From the NCBI GenBank assembly GCA_028875575.1, contig JAPPDF010000045.1, forward strand, positions 1 to 50,436: a DNA stretch of 50,436 nucleotides, in the 5' to 3' direction. The position numbers were made by a program, and so were the translations under genes. Position 1 is the stretch's first letter; the number at the start of each line of letters is the position of its first letter. Positions 701 through 50,436 of the stretch are shown one piece after another. Below the pieces are notes generated by a model. It did not search any database. It was not told where the DNA came from and saw nothing but the letters and a program-made list of their open reading frames with translations. The stretch comes from Acidobacteriota bacterium (GTDB lineage Bacteria; Acidobacteriota; Terriglobia; Versatilivoradales; Versatilivoraceae).

Positions 701-2511
701 CCGTCAGCGGCTGGACCTTCGTTTTTGTGGGATTGAGCTTCGGCTTGTACCTGCTCATCGCCTGGCTCAGTCGGGTGCGGGACACCCAGGGTTTTTACGT
801 GGCAGGGCGGGGGGTTCCGGCGGCGGCCAACGGCATGGCCACCGCGGCCGATTGGATGAGCGCGGCTTCCTTCATCTCCATGGCCGGGCTGATCAGCTTC
901 ATGGGATACGCCGGCGGGATGTACCTGATGGGATGGACCGGCGGCTACGTGCTGCTGGCCCTCCTGCTGGCGCCCTATCTCCGCAAGTTCGGCCACTTCA
1001 CCGTCCCCGATTTCATCGGCGACCGCTACGCCTCCAATACGGCGCGCCTGGTGGCGGTGATCTCGGCGCTGTTCGTCAGCTTCACCTACGTGGCCGGGCA
1101 GATGCGCGGGGTGGGCGTGGTCTTTTCCCGCTTCCTGGAAGTGGACATCAACGTGGGCGTCGCCATCGGCATGGCCATCGTCTTCATCTACGCCACCCTT
1201 GGAGGTATGAAAGGGATCACCTGGACCCAGGTGGCCCAGTATTGGGTGTTGATCACGGCCTTCCTCATTCCCGCCATCGCCATCAGCATCCGCCTGACCG
1301 GGCATGCCTTTCCCCAGATAGGACTGGGAGCGGAGCTGCTCGAGGGCGGTTACCTGCTGGACAAGCTGGACAAGATCCATGCCGACCTCGGCTTCTCCAG
1401 CTACACGGCGGCCTTCGACGGTCCTTGGGACATGGCCAATGTCTTCCTGGTGACCCTGGCCCTGATGGCCGGCACCGCCGGTCTTCCCCACGTCATCGTG
1501 CGCTTCTACACCGTGAAGACCGTGCGGGCGGCCCGTACATCGGCCTTCTGGGCCCTGTTCTTCATTTCCCTGCTCTATCTGACGGCGCCGGCCACCGGAG
1601 CCTTCGCCCGCTATTACATGATCGACTCGCTTCAGGGCAGGACGGCCGCGCAATTGCCGGACTGGTTCCGAAGTTGGGAGAAGACCGGCCTGATCCTGTG
1701 GCTGGACGACGGCGACCGCCGGCTGCGCTACTCCGGGGGCGCGGACAACGAAATCTTCAGCTACAAGGCCGGCAGGGTGGTGGTTGGGGGTGAATCGATG
1801 TCCCTGGCTCAGATCACCCGGAGCCATCAGGAGTGGATCGCCTCAGGCGGCGCGGAGGGTCGCGACTGGCGTCCCCTGTTCCGGGAGGCCAAGCTCACCG
1901 GCCCGGACCGCGACATCATCGTGCTGGCCACTCCCGAGATGGCGGAGCTCTTCGCCTGGATTGTGGCGCTGGTGGCCGCGGGAGGACTGGCGGCAGCCCT
2001 GTCCACCGCCTCGGGGCTGCTGCTGGTCATCTCCTCGGCCGTGGCTCACGACCTCTACGCCCGGGTGATCAACCCTGCCGCCAGCGAGAAGCAACGGCTG
2101 CTGGTGGGGCGCAGCGTCATCGGGGTGGCGGTGGTGGTGGCAGGACTCTTCGGCATCTTTCCTCCCGGCTTCGTCAGCCAGGTGGTGGCCTTCGCCTTCG
2201 GCTTGGCGGCCGCCTCCTTCTTTCCGGCCATCGTCCTGGGCATCTTCCACAAACGGGTGGGGACGGTGCCGGCCGTGGCTGGGATGATCGTGGGCCTGGC
2301 CTTCACCAGCTTCTACATCGTGGCCAGCGTCTACGGAGGAATGGCCCCCTGGACCTTCGGCGTCTTCGAGAAGGGGATCAGCCCTCAGGGCATCGGAGCC
2401 ATCGGCATGGCTCTCAATTTCCTGGTGACGCTAGGACTGACGCCCTTCTGCCGGGAGCCGAGCGACGAAGTCAAGAACCTGGTGGATTCGGTGCGCGAGC
2501 CCGAGGGTTAG
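697..2511 (+). CDS. sodium:solute symporter large subunit (VC_2705/ActP-like)
   Basis: Transport subunit of the solute:sodium symporter (SSS) family, 604 aa, inner membrane. The N-terminal third has the expected helices and motifs: FYVAGRGVPAAANGMATAADWMSAASF, with the glycine- and serine-rich sodium-site region, and FGHFTVPDFIGDRY. A long hydrophilic insert (about residues 320-400) before the helix beginning ATPEMAELFAWIVAL is typical of the VC_2705 subgroup, which pairs with a DUF4212 subunit. GLPHVIVRFYTV is another family hallmark. The start overlaps the small subunit's stop. A monocarboxylate substrate such as acetate is likely from family knowledge, but specificity is not visible here. 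Confidence 0.9.
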   Translation: MTVSGWTFVFVGLSFGLYLLIAWLSRVRDTQGFYVAGRGVPAAANGMATAADWMSAASFISMAGLISFMGYAGGMYLMGWTGGYVLLALLLAPYLRKFGHFTVPDFIGDRYASNTARLVAVISALFVSFTYVAGQMRGVGVVFSRFLEVDINVGVAIGMAIVFIYATLGGMKGITWTQVAQYWVLITAFLIPAIAISIRLTGHAFPQIGLGAELLEGGYLLDKLDKIHADLGFSSYTAAFDGPWDMANVFLVTLALMAGTAGLPHVIVRFYTVKTVRAARTSAFWALFFISLLYLTAPATGAFARYYMIDSLQGRTAAQLPDWFRSWEKTGLILWLDDGDRRLRYSGGADNEIFSYKAGRVVVGGESMSLAQITRSHQEWIASGGAEGRDWRPLFREAKLTGPDRDIIVLATPEMAELFAWIVALVAAGGLAAALSTASGLLLVISSAVAHDLYARVINPAASEKQRLLVGRSVIGVAVVVAGLFGIFPPGFVSQVVAFAFGLAAASFFPAIVLGIFHKRVGTVPAVAGMIVGLAFTSFYIVASVYGGMAPWTFGVFEKGISPQGIGAIGMALNFLVTLGLTPFCREPSDEVKNLVDSVREPEG

Positions 2512-2753
2512 CCCGCCTTTCTCACCAGGTCGCTGGATTCATAATGAACGGCCATTTATTTTCAGCAACTTGTTGGTCCGAGTGGAATGCCTCGCAGTGA
2601 CACACGGTGCTGGGCGCGCCCTGGCTTGTCCTTTTCCCCTCAGCGCGCACAGGCTCCCTCGACCGTAGAAACCGCTACGCTCTTCGGTCGCGAGCACGCG
2701 CTGAGGGGAAAAGGCCTGCGCCATCATCACGCCCCCTGGTGAGAAAGGCGGGC
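2512..2753. mobile_element. MITE-like palindromic element, copy 1
   Basis: A 242-bp block bounded by exact 19-bp inverted repeats: GCCCGCCTTTCTCACCAGG at 2512-2530 and its complement at about 2735-2753. Inside is a second inverted repeat of 18 bp (CCTTTTCCCCTCAGCGCG at 2629-2646, complement at 2697-2714) whose loop holds a smaller hairpin around CGTAG/CTACG. The right-hand 131 bp (2623-2753) recurs in the opposite orientation at 50308-50436 with scattered substitutions. It has no open frame of note. Terminal repeats, internal stem and dispersed copies suggest a non-autonomous, transposase-mobilised element, although no target-site duplication is evident. It begins directly after the TAG stop of the symporter gene. 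Confidence 0.65.
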
Positions 2754-2832
2754 GAGACCCCGGCGGTGGCCATCGAGTCCGCTTCCGAGCATTGACGACC
2801 GACAGGCGCCGGGGGGTTGGGGAGGAGAACTG

Positions 2833-48966: not shown

Positions 48967-49158
48967 CGGATTCTCCTTATTTGCTGACAGCGGTCAGGCC
49001 GCATACCAATTGTCTTTGGACCTAACTACTCATAGTAAAGCATAGGGAGCGCCATGAGACAACATCCAAGTTGCCCTGTCCCAAATGCCGGTCAGGTCCC
49101 GGAGCCCGGCCGCGGCCCGCGAACCAGCCGAACCCCTGCTCCGTCCATCCTTGCAAGG

Positions 49159-50307
49159 ATGGCGCTGAGGTTCTGGCTGCTGCTGTCCCTCGTCCCAATC
49201 GCCGTCGCCCATCCCATCCCCGACGTGCCCCTGCGGTCCTTTTTCGAGGCCGACGGCTCGGCAGTCATCAAGATCGAGCTGGACACCCGCTGCTTCAGCC
49301 AGGATCCGGAAGCCGAGCCCTATCTGTTCCTGGAGGATTACCTGCTGCTGAGCGAGGCGGACCGGGACCAATTGCGGGCCCAGGCGCGAGCCTACGCCGA
49401 CAAGGTCCTCCAGCTCTCCTTCGAGCCCGGGGGAGCGGCCCGGCCCGAATGGGAATTCGAGTTCACCACCTTCCGGGGCCGGCCACTCACCCGGGCCGAC
49501 GATCCGGTGATGATGACCGGGTCCTGGCGTCTGAAGGACACCTCGGGACTGACGGGCTACCAGGCCCGCTCCCTGCCCGAGGCCGAATTGAGCCTGCTGT
49601 TTCTAAACTACTACCAGGGGGAAATCCTGCGGGGAATCCAGGTGCTGTTCCCGGATGAGACCAGTCGGGTCCTCGACCTCGCCAACCTGGCCCAGGCGGA
49701 AACCGGCGACCCCGACCAGAACCTGATCGAAGGCATCACCGCCCCCGGCAACTGGGCCACCTTCACCAGCTTCATTCGCTCGGGCTTCGTGCACGTGGTG
49801 CCCCTCGGAATGGACCACATCCTCTTCGTTCTGGGCCTTTTCCTGCTCAGCCGGCACTGGAAGCCCCTGTTGCTTCAGGTGACCGCCTTCACCCTGGCCC
49901 ACACCCTCACCCTGGGCCTGGCCGCCACCGGGGTGGTGCACGTCCCCGCCTCGGTGGTGGAGCCGATCATTGCCGGAAGCATCGTGGTGATCGCCCTGGA
50001 AAACATCTTCTATCCCAGGTACACCCCCTGGCGGCTGCTGGTGGTCTTCGTCTTCGGCCTGGTGCACGGGCTGGGGTTCGCGGGGGCCCTGAGCCAGTTG
50101 GACCTGCCGGCAGCGGCCCTGCTGGTGGGACTGCTGGGATTCAACCTGGGGGTGGAGCTGGGCCAGTTGACCGTGATCGCCGCCGGCCTGCTGCTGACGA
50201 TCTGGCTGCGCGATCCGGACCGCTACCGCAAGGCCGTGGTCATTCCCGGGTCCCTGGCCATTGCCGCCATGGGCGCCTACTGGATGATCCAGCGGGTGTT
50301 TTTCTAG
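49159..50307 (+). CDS. HupE/UreJ-family membrane protein with N-terminal extracytoplasmic domain
   Basis: A 382-residue protein. A signal-like start (ALRFWLLLSLVPIAVAHPIP) leads to an extracytoplasmic domain of about 175 residues (SFFEADGSAVIKIELDTRCF, then EFEFTTFRGRPLTRADDPVMM). The C-terminal half is the HupE/UreJ-2 membrane domain with about six helices: SGFVHVVPLGMDHILFVLGLFLLSR, LLQVTAFTLAHTLTLGLAATG, EPIIAGSIVVIALENIF, VFGLVHGLGFAGAL and LLGFNLGVELGQLTVIA. Its conserved His and Glu residues could bind Ni or Co. The family is linked to nickel/cobalt uptake, but this role is inferred. The ATG at 49159 follows CAAGG. No hydrogenase or urease genes are in the window. Confidence 0.85.
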   Translation: MALRFWLLLSLVPIAVAHPIPDVPLRSFFEADGSAVIKIELDTRCFSQDPEAEPYLFLEDYLLLSEADRDQLRAQARAYADKVLQLSFEPGGAARPEWEFEFTTFRGRPLTRADDPVMMTGSWRLKDTSGLTGYQARSLPEAELSLLFLNYYQGEILRGIQVLFPDETSRVLDLANLAQAETGDPDQNLIEGITAPGNWATFTSFIRSGFVHVVPLGMDHILFVLGLFLLSRHWKPLLLQVTAFTLAHTLTLGLAATGVVHVPASVVEPIIAGSIVVIALENIFYPRYTPWRLLVVFVFGLVHGLGFAGALSQLDLPAAALLVGLLGFNLGVELGQLTVIAAGLLLTIWLRDPDRYRKAVVIPGSLAIAAMGAYWMIQRVFF

Positions 50308-50436
50308 CCCGCATTTCTCACCTGGGGCGTGATGATGGCGCAGGCATTTTCCCCTCAGCACGTGCTCGGGAGCGAAGAGCATAGCGGTCACTACGGTCGA
50401 GCGAGCATGGATGGGCTGAGGGGAAAAGGACAAGCC
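50308..50436. mobile_element. MITE-like palindromic element, copy 2 (runs off the window end)
   Basis: Starts GCCCGCATTTCTCACC directly after the TAG stop of the HupE-type gene, then GGCGTGATGATGGCGCAGGC and the stem arm TTTTCCCCTCAGC. The complementary arm GCTGAGGGGAAAA is at about 50416-50428. It matches the reverse complement of 2623-2753 along its whole visible length with scattered changes. The sequence beyond 50436 is not available, so its far end is unknown. Confidence 0.65.

Follow-up and report, generated by a model that had tools for sequence, protein, structure and literature searches.

A probable IS1380-type MITE found preferentially on stop codons in an Acidobacteriota genus

The stretch of DNA analyzed here (the window; 50,436 nucleotides, contig JAPPDF010000045.1 of assembly GCA_028875575.1, from an Acidobacteriota bacterium) carries two copies of a short, gene-less element that is repeated about 90 times in the genome. 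We assign to it, with a probability of about 0.88, the identity of an IS1380-type miniature inverted-repeat transposable element (MITE) that is mobilized by an IS1380-family DDE transposase acting in trans, with YTAR as its target. Its copies are concentrated on the stop codons of genes. A MITE-like nature had been part of the original prediction made from the window, and it is borne out by the terminal repeats, target duplications, copy number, empty sites, and matching IS1380-family transposons described below.

Copy 1, the complete copy in the window, is bounded by 18-bp terminal inverted repeats, CCCGC[A/C]TTTCTCACCAGG (Table 1). Its length leaves no room for a transposase gene, and most other copies are 239 to 245 bp long. 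The element had been drawn as a block at 2512-2753 that recurs inverted at 50308-50436; both copies were seen, and the element was trimmed to 2512-2752 and its repeats to 18 bp, base 2753 (C) being part of the flanking tetramer on comparison of copies. The arms of the internal stem are complementary at 18/18 positions, and the fold of copy 1 is very stable, with an energy z score of -7.4 as RNA and -8.2 as DNA (0/200 shuffles equal). Copy 2 matches positions 2623-2752, inverted, at 114/130 positions (88% identity), and only the contig end truncates it.

Table 1. Coordinates of the two element copies in the window and of their parts and flanks
Feature	Position	Strand	Remarks
MITE copy 1, complete	2512-2752	+	241 bp, non-coding; left end placed at 2512 by convention
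Left terminal inverted repeat CCCGCCTTTCTCACCAGG	2512-2529	+	A to C at position 6, mirrored by T to G in the right repeat
Right terminal inverted repeat	2735-2752	-	CCTGGTGAGAAAGGCGGG
Left flanking tetramer TTAG	2508-2511	+	TAG is the present symporter stop; missing at the empty sites of sister species
Right flanking tetramer CGAG	2753-2756	+	Ancestral target; empty sites read GGCGAGACC / GGCGAGGCC
Internal stem, 5' arm	2630-2647	+	Complementarity; compensating changes among copies
Internal stem, 3' arm	2697-2714	+	Complementarity; compensating changes among copies
Apex palindrome GTAG-N6-CTAC	2665-2678	+	Distance from right end fixed among copies
MITE copy 2, inverted	50308-50436	-	Ended by contig end; missing in five sister species
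Flanking CTAG of copy 2	50304-50307	+	Its TAG serves the HupE/UreJ gene (49054-50307) as native stop

Both copies adjoin a TAG that ends a gene, as originally noted, but only the TAG at 50308 is an original stop. In the five sister species without copy 2, a native stop CTAG or TTAG is in place at the corresponding site, which indicates that copy 2 landed on a stop codon. The gene before copy 1 encodes an SSF symporter (697-2511). Copy 1 is absent from the orthologous site in three sister species (G001, G004, and G006), and there the symporter runs 13 codons longer, with a C terminus of ...EGETPAVAIESASEH before the stop in two of the three and a close variant in the other, versus ...EG in the four genomes in which the site is occupied. 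Insertion of copy 1 thus cut 13 codons off the gene, and the symporter TAG at 2512 is a consequence of it and not a native stop. The target was CGAG, and the TTAG to the left of the element arrived with or after the insertion. In G002 (locus L385, contig C307), the site orthologous to window position 2512 holds a different sub-lineage of the element whose left part is unlike copy 1, which suggests either that one copy has converted another or that a second element has inserted at this site. In G005 (locus L386, contig C457, 868-1015), the orthologous copy is internally deleted, with 148 bp left and both ends intact.

The window's own genome (G000; 4.49 Mb in 101 contigs) contains 181 matches to the 18-bp end with no more than two mismatches, versus 0 for the reversed control, and thus carries about 90 copies of the element; among the candidates that were scored, 40/40 matched it. 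The element survey and the flank counts rest on 2.2 Mb of this genome, in which we found 61 paired elements, including a few of only 126 to 128 bp. Each of the other six genus genomes also has the element. Three of these, Acidobacteria bacterium jk18x1bzbins.7 (G004), a Terriglobia MAG with chromosome OX638355.1 (G001), and "Candidatus Versatilivorator vitaminiformans" (G005), come from organisms that we take to be sponge symbionts. The sampled other genera of the family and class gave no match to the element, and viral contigs gave 0 exact matches to its end. Besides the window, which ends inside an element at 50436, contigs C20, C24, C28, C66, and C95 of the same genome start inside one; since contigs begin or end within copies, the element causes breaks in assembly.

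Typical copies are flanked on both sides by CTAG or on both sides by TTAA, and 29/61 have an identical YTAR tetramer on either side. Empty alleles in sister species hold a single tetramer (sites C87:17242, C87:70462, and C42:48837). The predicted insertion specificity for CTAG/TTAG-like sites therefore holds in the form of YTAR, including TTAA. Intact IS1380 elements likewise sit between two copies of CTAG or of TTAG. Annotated IS1380 insertion sequences (PF13701) on plasmids of Pseudomonas and Stutzerimonas (Pseudomonas putida pKF715A and Stutzerimonas zhaodongensis A252) are 1655 bp long, begin with CCCGCATTTCTCAC, end with GTGAGAAATGCGGG, and lie between duplicated CTAG tetramers; their outer 14 bp are identical to the MITE consensus end (14/14). 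A gammaproteobacterial MAG holds an intact 1736-bp element with a 485-aa PF13701 protein, CTAG on both sides, and ends CCTGGATTTCTCACCG, and a Bradyrhizobium plasmid element and two elements from relatives in the class follow the same plan of ends and target. Within the genus, remnants of PF13701 (DDE_Tnp_1_4, IS1380-family transposase) lie between nearly the same ends, for example CCCGCATTTCTCACCAGA, and share about 14 to 17 of the 18 end positions with the MITE.

These shared ends, together with the CTAG target, place the element as an IS1380-type MITE. IS1380 genes are common in relatives without the MITE (19/34 class relatives), so the case rests on the ends and the target and not on co-occurrence. 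G000 and the other genus genomes contain no intact IS1380 element with exactly the MITE ends, only fragments, the G000 assembly being broken at repeats, and two of the seven genus genomes (G001 and G006) have no PF13701 match. Two other candidates for the mobilizing gene were rejected. Recurrent open reading frames in the 3-kb neighborhoods of the ends were only host genes and read-through frames, and DDE_Tnp_1 (PF01609) loci in the genus lack paired ends, their single-end matches overlapping a PF13701 locus (L210/L216). A literature search on bacteria with the 12-base core of the element end returned only unrelated matches, and no paper was found whose title or abstract gives CTAG as the target of IS1380.

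The MITE differs from the insertion sequences in lacking a transposase gene, and its interior has no evident sequence in common with the IS1380 fragments of the genus or the IS copies seen, so none of these gave rise to it by a simple internal deletion. Two genus loci hold internally deleted IS1380 elements of 712 to 756 bp (L205, 1242-1997; L207, 1268-1979) whose transposase genes are partial and whose ends are nearly identical; these are possible intermediates between IS and MITE. Among copies of the MITE, identity is about 96% in the ends, only 61% at positions 19-95, and 88 to 91% in the remainder. The apex palindrome GTAG-N6-CTAC starts 74 to 76 bases from the right end in 52/54 G000 copies. 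Gammaproteobacterial relatives with the same ends and lengths of 238 to 243 bp have [AG]TAG-N6-CTA[CT] starting at base 74 to 75 from one end, a placement shared by 51/54 G000 copies, although the left halves of the G000 and gammaproteobacterial elements are near chance identity. RNA alifold on the cross-phylum alignment recovered mainly the terminal stem and the apex, a limited recovery due to stems that shift register. By this comparison, the architecture is common to the phyla, unlike a random deletion product. It might even mark an old gene-less transposon lineage common to Acidobacteriota and Gammaproteobacteria, in which selection, acting on mobility or on a function as a portable 3'-UTR structure, maintains the length of roughly 240 bp and the fixed-distance hairpin, and which colonizes stops since the target duplication rebuilds them; we regard this extended reading as possible but somewhat doubtful.

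To quantify the association with stop codons, we applied a simple hexamer gene caller to the sequence after removal of the elements. Exactly on a gene stop were 27/55 copies versus 288/2556 unoccupied YTAR sites (49% versus 11%; odds ratio 7.6, P = 9e-12), where the YTAR side was taken as the target if the other flank was non-YTAR, slightly favoring stops, and copy 1 was counted among the stop insertions despite its different native stop. The bias is seen within CTAG (19/34 versus 122/578) and within TTAA (6/9 versus 36/675). Copies are thus neither few nor randomly placed relative to stop codons, and the predicted association survived the genome-wide tabulation. Outside the genus, in other phyla, an independent and cruder test placed 15/47 copies versus 191/2371 sites on stops (32% versus 8%; P = 4e-6). 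Occupancy of YTAR sites is 8.6% at stops, 4.1% in the 1 to 60 bp 3' of genes, 1.7% on the 5' side, 1.1% in other intergenic DNA, and 0.4% in coding sequence, the difference between stops and the next 60 bp being not significant (P = 0.07). Selection for insertion just outside genes had been among the proposed causes, and the enrichment at stops and 3' ends and the low coding occupancy support it. Given the drop from stops to coding sequence, harmless landing combined with purifying selection on YTAR insertions is the simplest cause of the bias.

The same figures could be read as targeting of gene ends (stops, terminators, or transcript ends) by the transposase machinery beyond YTAR, as stops are occupied far more often than other non-coding YTAR sites (1.1 to 1.7%), even within one tetramer, and the bias recurs in other phyla. 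However, a gradient from stop to 3' flank to 5' region to coding sequence is what purifying selection predicts, coding and promoter DNA do hold some copies, and no extended target motif was established. We consider gene-end targeting unlikely and infer that selection, not a recognition of gene ends, produces the bias. The transposase, acting in trans, would recognize the roughly 18-bp ends and insert the element at YTAR, mainly CTAG and next TTAA, duplicating 4 bp. As YTAR includes TAG or TAA, an insertion exactly at a stop codon would regenerate the stop from the duplicated tetramer, and such an insertion would be harmless and hence kept. A palindromic tetramer could rebuild the stops of two converging genes at once. 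Copies in coding DNA and promoters would be lost.

Paired changes have accumulated in the stems of the element. Stem column pair 134-200 is C-G in 24 copies and T-A in 13, pair 152-182 is C-G in 20 and G-C in 19, and at end position 6, A-T has become C-G in three copies, that of the window among them. Double-changed stem pairs number 8 versus 3.0 in shuffles (0/500 as high, which is not a probability since the copies are related). Copying between arms could be an alternative source of these changes. The hairpin may persist because it aids the movement or survival of the element or because each arm serves to correct the other in replication. A benefit to the host is a further reading, in which the element is retained at gene ends since its transcribed hairpin acts as a portable 3'-UTR structure that blocks 3'-5' mRNA decay or insulates converging transcripts, much as proposed for REP/BIME. 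The very stable fold, the compensating arm changes, the half of copies that begin directly after a stop codon, and the placement between converging genes of 19/50 non-coding copies, versus 203/1498 sites in the background, speak for it. Against it, insertions differ among sister species (the window copies are missing in three and five relatives), particular genes show no sign of keeping copies, exact stops are not clearly above the next 60 bp, as tolerance predicts, and the arm matching is also explicable by copying between arms. We judge retention for host benefit distinctly unlikely. Rfam gave no match at gathering score in 2400-2900. The role as a transcription terminator that had been suggested finds no support: the long stems lack a following T-run, and the only terminator-like match, a weak one, falls on an internal stem of 6 pairs.

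The two flanking tetramers differ in about half of the copies, and many of these unequal flanks border perfect ends. A piggyBac-like chemistry, in which a 4-nt donor overhang is carried along, would account for this, one flank coming from the donor and the other from the target. Copy 1 would fit, as it has TTAG on the left and CGAG on the right and three empty relatives have CGAG; the same holds for C2:26643 and C42:22167, where the empty site has the non-canonical tetramer. However, the empty allele is the non-canonical side at only 3/9 readable unequal sites and canonical YTAR at 6/9, where the odd flank most likely reflects later mutation, and we find a carried donor overhang very unlikely. 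CTAG occurs at 0.30 per kb in G000 (1.16 Mb sampled, 61.5% G+C), about a tenth of the expectation from composition; this scarcity may favor mutation away from CTAG, altering CTAG target duplications.

It is hardly credible that the stop association is a trivial by-product of the target, for although every YTAR insertion sets a TAG or TAA beside the element, so that adjacency to such a triplet means nothing, the excess over unoccupied YTAR sites under the same gene caller and again in other genomes refutes this unless our in-house gene caller is badly biased.

As a MITE of a known IS family, the element is of an ordinary kind. Like MITEAba12, it is short and gene-less, with IS-like ends, target duplications, and tens of copies. 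MITEAba12 is mostly 113 bp and is ascribed to ISAba12, and its 9-bp duplications show no trend in sequence (PMC6382973), whereas the present element combines a YTAR target with a strong stop bias and with an internal hairpin that is conserved across phyla. Correia/NEMIS, RUP, RPE, and similar small repeats are likewise mobile and have terminal repeats and stem-loops, although their ends and targets presumably differ from those described here. Some of these repeats are transcribed with neighboring genes (PMC2229807). REP/BIME are also repeated palindromes, extragenic, GTAG-/CGTC-tagged, and 20 to 40 bp long, for which termination or mRNA stabilization has been hypothesized (PMC3733652), but a 241-bp unit with 18-bp inverted ends and duplicated tetramers falls outside that class. 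Eukaryotic piggyBac transposons resemble the element in their 4-bp TTAA-type target and in ends that often start with CCC, and IS1380 transposases form the outgroup in piggyBac trees (PMC10813416).

Two features stand out, the quantified colonization of stop codons via a self-repairing target and the hairpin conserved across phyla. The first offers a clear case in which a stop-containing target lets a transposon settle harmlessly in a compact genome, converging genes included, and the occupied and empty alleles in sister species make effects on upstream genes testable. In light of the second, some MITEs may be lineages in their own right, more than passive remnants of insertion sequences. The element also has variants of other lengths. 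The 126- to 128-bp variant has the same ends and mostly YTAR flanks (G000:C101:81672-81797, C88:10472-10599, and C88:19267-19393; also L116 and L155), and gammaproteobacterial genomes contain further variants of about 160, 311, and 349 bp.
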